From Polytrichum commune (lineage: Eukaryota; Streptophyta; Polytrichopsida; Polytrichales; Polytrichaceae): a DNA stretch of 64,000 bases. Position numbers and translations under genes: made by a program. Location: positions 17,112,001-17,176,000 of the forward strand of contig OX485803.1 in assembly GCA_950295325.1 (NCBI GenBank). The letters run 5' to 3'. Positions 52,421 to 58,725 of this stretch are shown piece after piece. The first letter of the stretch is position 1. Each line of letters opens with the position of its first letter. The notes beneath the pieces are model-generated. The model saw only the letters and a program-made list of their open reading frames with translations. It was not told where the DNA came from and searched no databases.

Positions 52421-53690
52421 GATGCCGTTAATGGCCACCCTTTTTTTTTAATTCCAATTCTTGTCTTCTCGTTCGGGGCGGCCGTTGATGGCCTCCCTTA
52501 CTAAAGGTTCAGTCTTCATTTAACAACATGATTTTTTTTGAAATAATCTCACACAAATGAGTCATTTTCTTTCCTTCCTAGAGAATGGCCGTTAAACAAC
52601 CACTATTTTTTTCCTTTCAATTTGTTTTACAAATATAGTTTTATTCTACATATAAACACCCACTTTTATAAAAATCATTTCCTCCATACGGGTGGCCGTT
52701 AACGGCCATCCTTTTTTCATTTCACTTGTTTTGCATATGTGGTTTTTGTTTTACATATAACACTCACTTAAGGAAAAATTCCTTTCAAAAGGTTGGCCTT
52801 TAATGGCCACTCTTTTTCCATGTCATTTTGTTTTATATATGTGGTTTCTTTCACATATAAACACTCACTCCACAAAAACATTTGACTTCCTAGAGGGTGG
52901 CCGTTAATGGTCACATGGTTTATATTTCACTCTGTTTTACATATGTGGTTTCTTCCACATATAAACATTCACTTCAACAAAAAGAAATTTGTTCCATAAG
53001 GATGGCCTTTAATGGCCACCTGTTTTTTATTTCACTTTATTTTGCATATGTGATTTTTATACATATAAACACTCACTCTTATAAAAAGAAAACATTCCTT
53101 CCATATAGGTGGTCGGTAACGGCCACCCTTTTTTCATTTCATTTTCGTTTGCATATGTGGTCTCTTCCATGTACAAACTCACTTATTCAAAATTTTCTTC
53201 TTCTTAAAGGTGGTTGTTAATGGCTAGCATTTTTTTATTTCACATGTACAAACCCACTTTCATAAGAAAACAATTCCTTCGATAAAAGTGGTCGTTAATT
53301 TTTATTTTGTTTCTTTTGCATATATAGTTTCTTTACCTGTAAACATTGACATTCATCATTTTTGGTATCCTTATTTATATTTCAATTTGCTTCACATATA
53401 TACTATCTTTTATATCTGAACACTCATATTCATCATTTTTTTCTCCTTCTATAAGGGTGACCGTTAGCGGCCATTATTTTTAGGTTTCATTTTGCTTTAT
53501 ATATGTGATTTCTTACATATGTATACACTTATTTTTTCTTCTTATTATTATAATATATTCTTTAATTTTTTTTATAAGGGTGGCTCTTAACAACCACCCT
53601 ATTTTGCATTTCATTTTACTTTGCATATGTGATTTCTTTCATATGTAAACATTTTTGTTAAATTTGGTTTTCTTTTTATATGGGTGGCAC
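52421..53690. repeat. Tandem array of about 105-bp units with two palindromes each
   Basis: About thirteen units have a palindromic core whose best form is GGTGGCCGTTAACGGCCA. Cores start near 52421, 52477, 52583, 52691, 52791, 52896, 53000, 53108, 53209, 53288, 53455, 53578 and 53681. A second module, CATATGTGG, a short T-rich spacer, then CCACATATA, lies in most units about 60 bases after the core and is itself an inverted repeat. The middle units are best preserved and the array decays at both ends. The core contains two divergent AACGG words, the heart of plant MSA/MYB sites, though the flanks only partly match. The array abuts a splice-acceptor-like TGCTTTAG at 53704, so it may sit in an intron of the adjacent pseudogene. 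Confidence 0.88.
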
Positions 53691-53704
53691 TTTTTGTGCT
53701 TTAG

Positions 53705-55097
53705 ATATGAAAGTTCTACCTTATTCTAAAGATTAATTGGAGTTGCAATTACAAGCATGTTTTACGAAAGAAATTGTTAAGACCTCTTTCATTCTTGAAC
53801 GGTTGTGGTATCAACTAAGGACAAAATCAAAATTTAATATTCCACTATATCAAATGGTTTCATTGCCAGTTGTTAGGCCTTTCTTGAAAAATGATGTTAT
53901 GAATTTGGCCACACATTTTGTTGCTTGTGGTTATGTGAAGGAAATATGATTTTTTATGTGGCCTTGGAGAACAATGAGGGCCATACAATAGATGTTTAAG
54001 ATATTATAATTGAATCATGAAGTGATAATTAGGTGTGGACAAATGCTATTTTTGAGAAAATATTGCAAAATAATGGAAACCTCAAAATTTTGTCTGGCAA
54101 AATATTGATGATTTGGGACGGCAACCATCGTTTGCAAGCTTGGTTGTTCATTATTAATCGAGATCACACATATGATTCCACTTGACATTGTGATGTTGAA
54201 AATATTATTATGGACGTCAAGGACTATATTGCAATTATGTTGGCAGCTTTGCATAAAGTCAATTGGTGATTTCTTCATTTTTGTCTTTTTGTATGTTCTT
54301 TCATTTGTTTTTTTTAATGTTTACTTTCTAGAATTTTTTTTAAAAATTTTTGTCATAAAGAACCAAAAATCTCATGTTTCTACAAATGTTGTTCATAAGT
54401 TGTTTCGCATTCAAAGCATTGTTAGGCAATCACTTTCATATTTTGAAAGACTTGTCTTTAAAGAAGACATTTTTACTACTAATGCCAAAAAATCCAAACA
54501 TAGAACTTGGTTTACTTTGGTTGTTGAGGCTCGTAATGGATTTCTATACCTAGTTATTTTCTCTAAAATATCAATTTCCTTTATATATTTTTTCTACTTC
54601 TTGTATATTTCCTTTGTTCTTGTTGTTCATTTGGATTTCTACTATCATATTTTTTATTGCATCTTCATTTTTTATTATGTGTAATTTTTCATATTCTTCT
54701 ATGTTATTTTCCTTGTGTAGCTAGAATTGGGGGATGTTGTTGTTGCTGCTCAAATTTTTTTTTATGAAAAGTACTTGGATCATGCACATTGGATTTTAAG
54801 TGCAGTTGATGAATGAGTTTCCAAAATTGTTGATAGGGTGAAATTAACTTCCCATTCGGAACTGAATAAACAACTTTATATTGCATATCCTAAATCTACT
54901 ATTTTGATCTTAGAGCATGTGAATTCTTATTATGAAACTCACGATGAGAGTCCTGAGATGACTAAAAAAAAAACTTTGGATGTTGGCAACTTCAACTATG
55001 GACACTTCTATGAAAATTAAGTGACTTAAGAGGTAGAACAACTCACCTACTCTTTGTGAGGCTCTCAATTTTTCAAAACCAAAGTTCAATGATATAG
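53705..55097 (+). pseudogene. Multi-exon gene with DGNHR motif, 5' part, disabled
   Basis: The first coding stretch runs from 53705 to about 54265. It reads LELQLQACFTKEIVKTSF, YQMVSLPVVRPFLKNDVM and NLATHFVACGYVKE, then after a frameshift FYVALENNEGHTIDV and GKILMIWDGNHRLQAWLF. A second exon (about 54361-54550) holds KLFRIQSIVRQSL and KSKHRTWFTLVVEARNGF. A third starts at 54721 after a TGTAG acceptor, in phase, with LELGDVVVAAQIFFYEKYLD. The D-G-N-H-R word recalls the ParB/sulfiredoxin fold nucleotide-binding motif, but that link is only a pattern match. At least six stops and two frameshifts disable it. A Mutator-like element interrupts the third exon at 55097. I do not know the function. 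Similar segments may belong to a repeated family in this genome. Confidence 0.6.
55087..55097. repeat. Target-site duplication, left copy
   Basis: CAATGATATAG, identical to 57516-57526, flanks the mobile element between them. It lies in coding sequence of the DGNHR pseudogene. Confidence 0.85.
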
Positions 55098-55672
55098 CGT
55101 TACATTAATCACCCCCCCCTCCATGTACATGGCCCATCACGTGGGCAACGTTTCTTTTCAACCCGTCCCTGAGTCAGCACGAGCTGACCAGCAACCGGTT
55201 TAGCCGGTCATGGTAGTTCGCCATGGCAGGGTAGTTTGTCATCGTTGCAGTTGCTTGGTACTTCTCCGTCGGGCGAGCTAGGTAATGAATTCTGACTTTG
55301 GTCCTGCGATAGCATAGATCTTGTCCTGCGATTAGAGTGTTGTGTTTGTGCATTTCCCGCCATTCTTGTTTTGCATGATGTGTGCCTTGCTTGCACTGTG
55401 TTTGGAGTGGATTTTGGGTTGTGGGTTTTCGAGATGCTTAGGGTTTAGGTTGAATCTTCTTCAGTCAGTGAGTGAAAATGGTCGGGATTTGGAGTTTAAG
55501 CCTTCAACCGAGTGAAGCTACAACCAAATTCATCTTCTTCGGTTAATATCATCTTTCACTTCAAAATTTGAACGGTATGAAAAAGAAAAGTCTGGTGAAA
55601 TGTTTGGGTGTCGTCCCGACATTCTTTGCATACTTACTTGAATTTGCTTGGACATGCTCTAGTGCATCCCAT

Positions 55673-55726
55673 ATGGCTACCGATAAGGCTAACCAAGCCA
55701 AGGATGCCGCCGGGAGTGTCCTTTAG
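55673..55726 (+). pseudogene. Possible LEA-like peptide fragment
   Basis: The peptide ATDKANQAKDAAGSVL resembles the 11-mer repeats of group 3 LEA proteins (A-x-D-K-A-x-Q-A-K-D-A-A). It is only about 17 codons and ends in a stop, so it may be chance. Confidence 0.2.
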
Positions 55727-56271
55727 CAGATAGATTCAGCAATTGTTTCGATTGCACCATAGTTCAGAGTTATGCTTGAATCTTCTTCTGTCAGTGTGAA
55801 AATTCTTGGGTGTCGGAATTGAATTTACCTTCATCTTGGAAAATTCCAAAGTCTGTTGGGAAATCGGTCTTCGTCTTTGAACTCTAAAATCTGAACATTC
55901 CTAATTGCTTTAACTTGTGGGGGATTCAATTCTTTCTTAGGCATCTTGAGATTTGCGTTGTCTGAACATAGAGCTTTACTTCTTTGAATCTTATCTAGGG
56001 CGTACTACTGATATATTTTGTGTGCTCACTTGAAGTTGTGAGGGTTACATTCATTCTTGGCCATTGCTGAGATTTGGGTGGGGTGAATGTTTGGGTATTA
56101 TAAGATTCTGGTACTCTTGACGTCATTGCCTGAATTTGTGAGGGGTTTGTTCTTTCATGGTGATGATACTTGCTAATATATTCGTGTTGTCTGTAACCAT
56201 GGTTTATAAATTCACAAGAAGCACACAGAAGTGATTTTAAAACAATTGGTCTAAAAGGGAGGGTTGCCATC

Positions 56272-56578
56272 ATGCAGGCAAGGGAGAGAGCGTATGAGGA
56301 ACTGTTGCAAAAGGCGAGCGAGTATCAAAAGACAAATAAATTGGAATCTATGTTCCTTCCACCCAGACCACGTTTTGGGAATGTGGTGGTTGAAGCTCAA
56401 GCTATTGAAATCAAATTTTTTGCATTTCAATTTTTTTGCATTTTAGTTAAGTGGACGAACATTATATGTAGGTTGTGTTCTTGTTGTTGATAAGTTGGAT
56501 CAACTTGCAGGTATTGTTGGGGTCATTGGAGGAAATGGGGCAGGGAAAACCACTCTTTTCCATATGATAATGGGCCAG
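56272..56578 (+). pseudogene. EttA-type ABC-F ATPase fragment, two exon pieces
   Basis: The first piece (56272 to about 56418) reads ARERAYEELLQKASEYQKTN, then FLPPRPRFGNVVVEAQAI. This is the inter-domain linker and the start of the second nucleotide-binding domain in EttA-type ABC-F proteins. The second piece (56511-56578) follows a TTGCAG acceptor and reads [17 protein letters not shown] plus HMIMGQ, the Walker A loop of that domain, ending at a GT donor. The roughly 20 residues expected between them are missing or unrecognisable, and everything N- and C-terminal is absent. EttA-type proteins are translation factors that bind the ribosomal E site; in plants such forms would be expected in plastids. 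The fragment is enclosed in the mobile element and was probably captured from a host gene together with its introns. Confidence 0.75.
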
Positions 56579-56776
56579 GTACGGCAATTTCTTCACTTTG
56601 GTTCTTTCATATGCAAAAATGGTGTTCACTTCAACAACCAGGTCATAGAAAGTGGAATGCACATGCTTTAATGTTGTGCACGAGCTGACTGTCACCTGAC
56701 CAACTGGTGCAAGCATGGCAAGCAATGAGAACTACAAGAGGAATGCAATCTGGACAGACATAGGATTAACATCTGA

Positions 56777-57124
56777 CACACAAACGGATTCTGGCAGTAT
56801 AAGAGCAACACCCTCCTCGTCCCTATTTTAGATTATGATCATTGGACTCTTATTGTGCTCTCTAAACGCCAGTTCCTGAAATTCGACTCAGTTTATGATG
56901 GGTCCTGGCATGGAACAGAGAGACTCCATACACTTCTGGGAAGACTCTGGGCATTGCATGTTGGTGTGGAGGAGTTTGAAGAACGGGAGATTGCCGGCAA
57001 TATGCGGTCGTGGAGCCATGCTGCATGTTTGCAACAAATTGGCAAAACTGAGTGCGGTTGGATGACGATGTGGAACCACAACCTACACCACAAATTGCAA
57101 CCAAAGTACATAAACAAGACATGA
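56777..57124 (+). pseudogene. Ulp1-like cysteine protease (C48 type) domain fragment
   Basis: After an in-frame stop at 56774 the frame is open to 57124. It reads NTLLVPILDYDHWTLIVLS, then FLKFDSVYDGSWHGTERL and CLQQIGKTECGWMTMWN. The pattern fits the Ulp1/SENP catalytic core: His in DHW, Asp in FDS, the oxyanion Gln in QQ and the nucleophile Cys in ECGW. This family removes SUMO from proteins, and Ulp1-like domains occur in plant Mutator-like (Kaonashi-type) and CACTA elements. Here only the catalytic half is present and no start codon is convincing. The domain could be the element's own gene or captured cargo. All four catalytic residues remain, so decay is limited. Confidence 0.7.
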
Positions 57125-57296
57125 AAAACAAACAAACCCTAATTCAAGAAACACAACAACACATAACTAGTCACTTCCAAGGTAAGCCCCCAACCAGCGC
57201 CCCCAAACCCTAAATTGTTGAGCCTCCGACCCTGAACCCTAAGTCAACACTTTTCAGATCCACAATTTCCGACAGGACAAGATCAGTCTTGCAGCA

Positions 57297-57400
57297 CAAC
57301 AAAAATTTCGTCGACGGATGGCACTGAATTGTCGTCAACGGAGGCTTGGGAACGTTGTCGACGGAGGGCGGGGAACGTTGTCGACGGGAGCAAGGGAAGC
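57297..57400. repeat. Subterminal GTCGACGG tandem repeat of the mobile element
   Basis: Four diverged units of about 24 bases share GTCGACGG or GTCAACGG, and the last three also share a GGGAACG-like word. They are GC-rich and lie 115-220 bases from the right end of the element. Confidence 0.7.
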
Positions 57401-57515
57401 GGGCAGTTGGAAAAGACCAAGCTGCCCGACGTCGCCAAAATTCCTCGATTTCGGGCAGATTTTGCCGGGCAGCGGCCTGACGTCATACGGTGGAAAGGGG
57501 GTGATTAATGTGAGC

Positions 57516-57526
57516 CAATGATATAG
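57516..57526. repeat. Target-site duplication, right copy
   Basis: CAATGATATAG, identical to 55087-55097. Confidence 0.85.
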
Positions 57527-58118
57527 AGTTTCCTAAGTGGCTTTATAAAGCTACTTGATGAGCTCATTTTATTATTTTTATTTTTATTTGTTTTGGTTCA
57601 TTCATTTCTTTTTTCAATCATTAAAACATATTGACTTTTATTTTGTATATAGCAATTGCTTATTGAAACCGATAAGCTCTTTGATGCTATTGTGGATAAT
57701 CTGGATATGTCCATCAGTTATCTTCCAGATGGTATGGACCTTTTGCCCATTATTATTTTTATTATGTGGAGACAATGCGCATATCGTTATAGGATACTGC
57801 ATTTTTTGTTAATTTGTTGTTGATAAGGGAGTTCACAAAACCAAAACATTGACAAACAACTCAACTTCAAACCAGTCATGCAAAGGGCATTTAACAGGTA
57901 CTTCAAATATCATATTCTGTACTTAAGCCATCTCCAAATCTCCTAGTTTTTTTGATATAGAAAATGAATAGTGTATGTTCACAGAAGAGATCATGAAATC
58001 TTGGGATCTTATGCATTTTGAAAAATGTGGATTGTATTTGGATTGTGTTCTTGAAACACCTCCCACTTTTGATAATGCCCTTCGAGATTCAATTCAACCC
58101 GCCCTCAAGGATGCGAAG
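57527..58118 (+). pseudogene. Downstream exons of the DGNHR-motif gene
   Basis: Directly after the duplication the sequence continues the coding frame of the interrupted exon: CEALNFSKPKFND before the insertion and IEFPKWLYKAT after it. Three further exon-like segments follow. The first, 57653-57731, has an ATAG acceptor and reads LLIETDKLFDAIVDNLDM. The second, 57828-57897, is phase-compatible with the first and reads IDKQLNFKPVMQRAFNR. The third, 57985-58118, has a CACAG acceptor and reads IMKSWDLMHFEKCGLYLDC and DNALRDSIQPALKDAK, ending at a GT donor. The join between the second and third is out of phase, so an exon may be missing. I recognise no domain in this part. Assignment to the same gene rests on strand, order and frame continuity across the insertion. 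Confidence 0.5.
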
Positions 58119-58725
58119 GTATTTCAAAGGCATTCAAATTCATCACTTAATCATTCTAAGTCATTATTCATATTTAAGTACTTACAATGCTTGCAGACTT
58201 TGCCTTTAACCCAATTTATATAAGCTATTATGTTTACAACCCGCTTTATGTCTACAACCTACTTTTGTTGTTCTTTGTGTTTTGGACTTTGTAAATGTCA
58301 CCCTTACGATGGTGTTATGATGTATTCAAATTTTACATTGATGTACATTGTAATGAGACATCCTAACATGCTACACTTATTTTCAACATAAATTTGTTTA
58401 CACATTATATCCAATAACATTATTATTATCTCAACATTTAAACGTAAATTAGTTCATTTTTTGGTACAAAATTGGCATAGCAACATTTTCTTTTGATGTT
58501 CATTTGGACCCTTACATATAATTCCATGGTCATAGGCCCCCAACGGATTTGCAAATCATGACCGGGAAAAATTAGAAGGCTTACATGCTCACAAGCTCAT
58601 GCTCGCATGCTTGCATACTAGCATCCCCACATCGTGCCCATGACATTGGAGAATCTTAGCATTGCACAACATGGGGATACACTCCAATACGGAACCATTC
58701 CGAGAGGAGGCTATAGATCTCAAGC
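58119..58725. other. Possible intron or intergenic DNA
   Basis: It follows a donor-like GT at 58119. No further exon of the upstream gene could be identified. Confidence 0.35.

Follow-up and report, generated by a model that had tools for sequence, protein, structure and literature searches.

A probable chimeric Pack-MULE-type element in Polytrichum commune and the paired transposase and Ulp1-like genes of its relatives

The window analysed here is a 64,000-nucleotide stretch of the genome of the moss Polytrichum commune (contig OX485803.1, positions 17,112,001 to 17,176,000; C1:17112001-17176000 in our contig numbering). It contains a Mutator-like element (MULE) that is very probably a non-autonomous, chimeric member, of Pack-MULE type, of a low-copy family, and that would have reached its present form through the captures, loss and transposition proposed below. 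The element is bounded by terminal inverted repeats (TIRs) and a target-site duplication, relatives lie elsewhere in the genome, donors of its captured segments can be located, and paralogous copies of its insertion site are uninterrupted. Since its ends are intact, its donors located, an intermediate preserved on contig C6 and a sister element found with exchanged cargo, the capture can be followed step by step.

Ends and extent of the element

All searches were run on the genome of 408 Mb, in 64 contigs, of which the seven large ones (42-78 Mb) sum to 406 of the 408 Mb. It has an acr3 arsenite transporter gene that scores over its cut-off, which suggests a non-flowering plant, as flowering plants are not known to possess this gene; the model for ENA-type ATPases does not exceed its cut-off. 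Element coordinates are counted from 1 at window position 55098, and all features are collected in Table 1. The two ends form an inverted pair that is perfect over 15 bp (55102-55116 against 57497-57511) and belongs to TIRs of 20 bp, alike at 17 of 20 positions. TIRs of MULEs are often long and in some MULEs absent, and those of the window element are short. When searched exactly, the 15-mer is found at eight places genome-wide (two for its reversed control), two of which are the window's own, and all eight are ends of DNA matches to the window element or its relatives. An earlier reading of the window, made from the sequence alone and hereafter called the sequence-only reading, had recognised a Mutator-like element with TIRs, and both the inverted pair and the relatives bear this out; the copies with the same ends that it proposed to look for exist, at the six places beyond the window's own.

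The same reading had described a perfect 11-bp duplication directly outside both ends. The 11-mer CAATGATATAG is indeed found twice in the window (55087-55097 and 57516-57526) and nowhere else in it, with a chance expectation of 0.04 and at least two occurrences in 1 of 100 shuffles. Genome-wide, its counts exceed those of the reversed control (173+173 against 42+44), likely because of the target repeat discussed below, each of whose five copies read carries it. The length of the duplication is best judged from other copies: the left end begins GCGTCA in 3 of 3 (C1:20.2M, C6:5165723 and C3:28058766) and the right end finishes GAGCC in 3 of 3 (C1:20.2M and two C6 right ends); the ends of the C5 copy differ (GGG and CGC). 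These ends delimit the element at 55097-57516 and reduce the duplication to 9 bp, identical at 9 of 9 positions on the two sides, while the outer C and G of the 11-bp version are rejected as chance matches to the element's terminal bases. A duplication of this length lies within the 8-11 bp given for MULEs in the available part of PMC6446971.

Table 1. Coordinates of the element, its component blocks and its insertion site in the window.
Feature	Element positions	Window positions	Strand	Basis or remark
Whole non-autonomous Mutator-like element		55097..57516	+	2,420 bp
Left TIR, GCGTTACATTAATCACCCCC		55097..55116	+	inverted pair, genome 15-mer places, end comparison
Right TIR, GGCTCACATTAATCACCCCC on minus strand		57497..57516	-	inverted pair, genome 15-mer places, end comparison
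Left target-site duplication, AATGATATA, 9 bp		55088..55096	+	end comparison; single CAATGATATAG in paralogs
Right target-site duplication, AATGATATA, 9 bp		57517..57525	+	end comparison
Left arm, family-native	1-349	55098..55446	+	DNA matches to relatives
Captured LEA-side block	352-1107	55449..56204	+	94.6% to C1:15993852-15994597
Captured EttA-like ABC-F fragment	1109-1630	56206..56727	+	donor C3:18647173-18648039
Internal deletion site, ~360 bp relative to donor gene		56410..56427	+	alignment to donor
61-bp filler	1628-1688	56725..56785	+	98% to C1:36637670-36637730
Ulp1-like protease gene, 3' fragment	1686-1979	56783..57076	+	as in C6:5185062
Right arm, family-native	1981-2418	57078..57515	+	DNA matches to relatives
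Target, decayed copy of dispersed repeat interrupted by element		53602..58628	+	homology to L027

Block structure, donors and relatives

A DNA search of the genome with the whole element gave 21 matches, from which its mosaic structure can be read. The left arm is common to the copies at C1:20.2M, C6, C3:28.06M and C5, at 81-96% identity. The donor of the block that follows lies directly downstream of an open reading frame (ORF), tentatively labelled LEA-like, and contains a diverged repeat of that ORF's end. The ABC-F fragment consists of two exon pieces together with intron sequence and has the Walker A motif GGNGAGKTT; its donor is a multi-exon gene, four exons of which match TIGR03719 (ChvD/EttA type). 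Relative to this gene, the internal deletion removes the end of one exon and intron sequence, and it is common to the window and the C6 copy. Identities to the donors are 94-96%, and 98% for the filler, while the joints between blocks are sharp, the source matches either overlapping by 3-4 bp or leaving 1-2 bp unmatched. To judge from these alignments, the real captures are the EttA-like ABC-F fragment, the segment beside the LEA-like gene and the 61-bp filler, so that fragments of non-transposon host genes (the EttA-like ABC-F gene and the LEA-adjacent locus) lie between MULE ends. The ABC-F fragment had been named as cargo in the sequence-only reading and its donor confirms it; the LEA-side block and the filler had been missed. 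The comparison of the cargo with intact genes that was then suggested led to the ABC-F donor on C3, but for the Ulp1 piece it led to the family's own copy on C6.

Two side observations concern the ABC-F sequence. The split nuclear EttA-like (TIGR03719) gene spans C3:18644422-18652488, i.e., about 8 kb. At the deletion site (56411-56442), the window has a 16-bp tandem duplication, of which the C6 copy has one unit.

Among the relatives, the C6 copy keeps the order and orientation of the window element (left arm, ABC-F piece, Ulp1, right arm); between its Ulp1 piece and its right arm lie about 4 kb with most of a transposase gene on the other strand, a stretch that is absent from the window. The sister element at C1:20244888-20247634, whose duplication is alike at 8 of 9 positions, matches the window element through the left arm and the LEA-side block and over the first 107 bp of the ABC-F fragment; beyond this point it has two other pieces, 218 bp from C3:28122978 (99%) and 711 bp from C5:18583583 (96%), and then the native right arm. 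The C5 copy (11476430-11522023) is flanked by a perfect 9-bp duplication, ACAAATGTA (9 of 9).

The wider surroundings of these copies show further transposon-like structures. At C6:5139301-5189865, the family is represented by two outward-facing right arms at a distance of 50.5 kb; a 3.3-kb stretch is 99.8% identical between them, while their outer ends differ by about 8%. The two right ends (5189865 and 5139301) are in opposite orientation and their flanks are alike at 7 of 9 positions; this structure could be the product of composite transposition or of rearrangement. Within the C5 relative, a 36.8-kb insertion (C5:11479556-11516393, loci L022-L026) has GGGA ends and a perfect 9-bp duplication of its own, GTATGGACC; a related end lies at C3:28051132, more transposon-like ORFs lie inside, and it is possibly a giant MULE-like element. 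A third gene considered in L015 and L025 was rejected, as it has no Pfam match and in C5 falls within this nested insertion. Finally, a related end, ACATTAAACACCCCC, is frequent among the places listed and forms five inverted pairs, 0.6-1.2 kb apart (C2:14086505/14087378, C3:18643150/18643725, C3:27006005/27007172, C3:32642322/32643489 and C6:4908739/4909658), perhaps a small family resembling miniature inverted-repeat transposable elements (MITE-like).

The Ulp1-like gene and its transposase

The Ulp1-like piece had been taken, like the ABC-F fragment, for captured cargo. Its genomic context points elsewhere. With the transposase protein of the C6 copy, the genome gave 140 scored matches out of 455 candidates, and with the Ulp1 protein 74 (91 candidates scored). 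For 58 of the 74 Ulp1 matches, one of these 140 transposase matches is found no more than 10 kb away, and all 58 are convergent with it, whereas random placement of the Ulp1 matches, using approximate sizes for three contigs, put on average 0.5 and never more than 5 of them near a transposase in 500 trials. Sixteen of the 74 have no scored partner within that distance, the Ulp1 of the window being one of them. Moreover, the two proteins co-diverge: their distances are correlated over 41 of the 58 pairs, i.e., 40 chosen non-randomly plus C6 (Mantel r 0.97, 0 of 2000 permutations), as they are over eight representatives (r 0.967, 0 of 5000 permutations). The gene occupies a colinear position in the C5 and C6 copies. 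In an alignment of 66 rows from 65 of the 74 matches, the catalytic residues H, D, Q and C are all retained in 58 rows, with Q accepted at either of two adjacent columns, and 14 rows include a stop. The window fragment retains all four residues, its C-terminal end being cut off, and is 95-96% identical to the C6 copy.

Both assignments draw on profile matches to relatives. PF02902 (Peptidase_C48) reaches 27.4 bits in L033, above the cut-off of 20.7, and 16.9 bits, below it, in another relative, while a profile built from six Ulp1 sequences matches the structure of an Ulp1-like SUMO protease (6dg4, E 1.5e-6). That related copies encode a MULE transposase is indicated by PF10551 (MULE). Against a cut-off of 27.6 bits, it scores 55.6 and 47.2 bits in two relatives after their exons were spliced by hand; the transposases of these relatives share 58% and 54% identity with the C6 protein. 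SWIM reaches 20.2 bits on the C6 copy (cut-off 19.6) and stays below its cut-off on the two relatives.

One might still suppose that the family acquired Ulp1 in an independent capture, with a cellular SUMO-protease gene as the source, and that the piece then spread among its members, and repeated transduplication of Ulp1 by MULEs, in both orientations, is on record in the available parts of PMC2528002 and PMC13317346. The invariably convergent pairing, far beyond random placement, the parallel divergence of the two proteins over the sampled pairs and the colinearity of the C5 and C6 copies make such an origin very improbable here. Because of the convergent pairing, the co-divergence, the retained catalytic residues and the profile matches, the window piece is probably the remnant of a resident second gene of the family and not captured cargo.

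A broader proposal, which we put forward tentatively and would not yet favour, is that in this genome an Ulp1-type protease gene may have become fixed as the second gene of a whole MULE clade and been passed on vertically, always convergent with the transposase and with its catalytic residues retained. Its product might act on SUMO or a SUMO-like modification, either protecting the element from silencing or regulating the transposase. If so, the partnership of transposase and Ulp1 would exist outside, and possibly before, flowering plants, and would not result from repeated recent captures.

The insertion site

The target was searched with both flanks joined over one copy of the duplication, which gave 40 scored matches out of 90 candidates. 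All but two of these, the two being the window's own flanks, run across an uninterrupted site at 78-82% identity, and they are spread over six of the large contigs and the small contig C53. The empty site proposed earlier as a check was found in each of the five paralogs read (L018, L020, L021, L027 and L028), where a single uninterrupted CAATGATATAG stands in the same context. Homology of the target to L027 extends over 53602-55101, 57516-57763 and 58235-58628.

The sequence-only reading had the element land in a coding exon of another gene; the insertion would then be the knockout of a functional single gene. It is true that a frame continues across one copy of the duplication, and that a 129-aa ORF of L018, L027 and L028 ends in FNDIEFPK at the insertion place. 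However, the frame through the joined site measures 30 codons between stops, the window copy has two frame changes and six stops relative to the L027 ORFs, 38 of the 40 matches belong to an uninterrupted repeat dispersed over several contigs, and two other copies of it, L027 and L028, are 96% identical over about 5 kb. An exon of a working gene is thus very unlikely, and on present alignments the element interrupts a decayed member of a dispersed repeat family, not a unique gene. The alternative that the 2.4 kb are a stable chromosomal segment, with TIRs and duplication arising by chance, is practically negligible, since nothing was found in its favour, the duplication is expected only 0.04 times per window, the TIR 15-mer marks element or relative ends at every one of its places, the paralogs hold the uninterrupted site, and other copies with their own flanks and duplications already refute it.

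As for the nature of the repeat, three ORFs of L027 have no match in Pfam, and DndB (E 0.098) and RnlB_antitoxin (E 0.0072), encountered on ORFs of the repeat and its surroundings, are below cut-offs and were taken as chance. The protein of the repeat (53602-58628; L027, L028) has a WDGNHRLQAW-like motif, and an ORF on its opposite strand has a SWIM-like CTCPDF...CKH pattern, with no usable Pfam match in either case.

Order of events and age

The following history would account for these structures. The ancestor may have been an autonomous element whose short TIRs enclosed two convergent genes, one for a SWIM-type MULE transposase and one for an Ulp1-like protease. A family element would first have captured the EttA-like ABC-F fragment from C3, and the window lineage would also have gained the LEA-adjacent C1 segment and the 61-bp filler. 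The transposase would have been lost when a deletion brought the right arm next to what was left of Ulp1, its 3' piece. With transposase supplied in trans, an element of this lineage would finally have transposed into an old copy of the dispersed repeat, producing the 9-bp duplication. Since the C6 copy has the same ABC-F piece, with the same deletion, in addition to a transposase, the uptake of ABC-F would have preceded the loss of the transposase. The overlaps and gaps at the joints fit repair by template switching or by end joining, which the available part of PMC8277862 describes for Pack-TIRs.

Kimura two-parameter distances are 0.037 to the donor and 0.035 to the sister for the LEA-side block, 0.045 and 0.052 to the donor for the ABC-F pieces, and 0.063 to the sister for the left arm. 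In Arabidopsis, the substitution rate is 7e-9 per site per year. At that rate, which may not be the host's, capture and the split from the sister would date very roughly from 2.5-4.5 million years ago. From these distances no limit follows for the age of the insertion itself, because capture may precede or follow arrival at the site. The earlier description of a complete, dateable capture event is thus too simple: there would have been several steps, with rough distances only.

Several observations weigh against this reading of the window element as a Pack-MULE-type family member with such a history. Regarding the family, the copy number is low and the TIRs measure only 20 bp; with one mismatch allowed, the TIR is found at 53+53 places against 58+50 for the control, without excess, so that the ends reveal no larger family. 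In the C6 copy, the left (5165723) and right (5189865) ends have unrelated flanks (3 of 9), from which we conclude that this locus is rearranged, and a second end of the copy at C3:28058766 is absent from the 7.7 kb read. Regarding the cargo, LEA_4 scores 22.0 bits on the donor-side ORF with its LEA-type repeats, below the cut-off of 51.1, while loci on C7 (249 bits) and C2 (169 bits) outscore any single C3 exon for TIGR03719, whose whole-protein cut-off no match in the genome reaches; 'EttA-like' is for these reasons the fair wording. Finally, Pfam gives no Ulp1 match on the Ulp1 ORFs of the window and the C6 copy, and the window's ORF reaches only E 0.22 against PDB, so that its assignment rests on relatives.

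Comparison with known systems

Pack-MULEs were described in rice (Jiang et al. 2004, as related in the available parts of PMC13317346 and PMC2528002). As far as these accounts go, the window element resembles them in being non-autonomous, in having TIRs and a target duplication of MULE size, in carrying fragments of several host loci and in having a sister copy with part of the same cargo; it differs in its short TIRs (20 bp) and in the retained piece of the family's own Ulp1.

Regarding the second gene, Hoen 2006 and van Leeuwen 2007 are cited for ULP1-containing MULEs. Such elements, including KAONASHI (KI), are described from Arabidopsis, melon, rice and grapevine in the portions available of PMC2528002 (Benjak 2008) and PMC13317346. 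In KI-MULEs, the ULP domain is reversed relative to the transposase, TIR-MULEs with ULP are found in melon and grapevine, and the ULP-bearing families of grapevine are scattered and show both orientations (PMC2528002, same portions), while the capture of Ulp1 by non-TIR MULEs is placed at the separation of monocots and eudicots (PMC13317346, likewise). On that partial basis, the window family is like KI-MULEs in the reversed ULP domain (58 of 58 pairs convergent), but KI ends are non-TIR whereas the window family has TIRs. It also differs from the grapevine families, since all 58 pairs are convergent here and the 41 tested co-diverge.

In MuDR, the genes are convergent, as in the window family, and mudrB is not known to be an Ulp1-type protease, whereas the second gene of the window family is of that type. 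The two-ORF structure of maize MuDR (mudrA and mudrB), as given in the available part of PMC6446971, is similar in that a second gene adjoins the transposase. No pairing of Mutator and Ulp1 elements in mosses or Polytrichum was found in the literature covered, most subscription journals lying outside its scope, which is why the pairing is not thereby shown to be unreported in non-flowering plants.

Altogether, the window holds one further element of Pack-MULE type, ordinary for its kind, and the strict pairing of transposase and Ulp1 in its relatives is the more interesting result. Found at 58 loci and co-diverging where tested, this pairing is relevant to the question of whether MULEs carry Ulp1 as captured junk or as a functional component.

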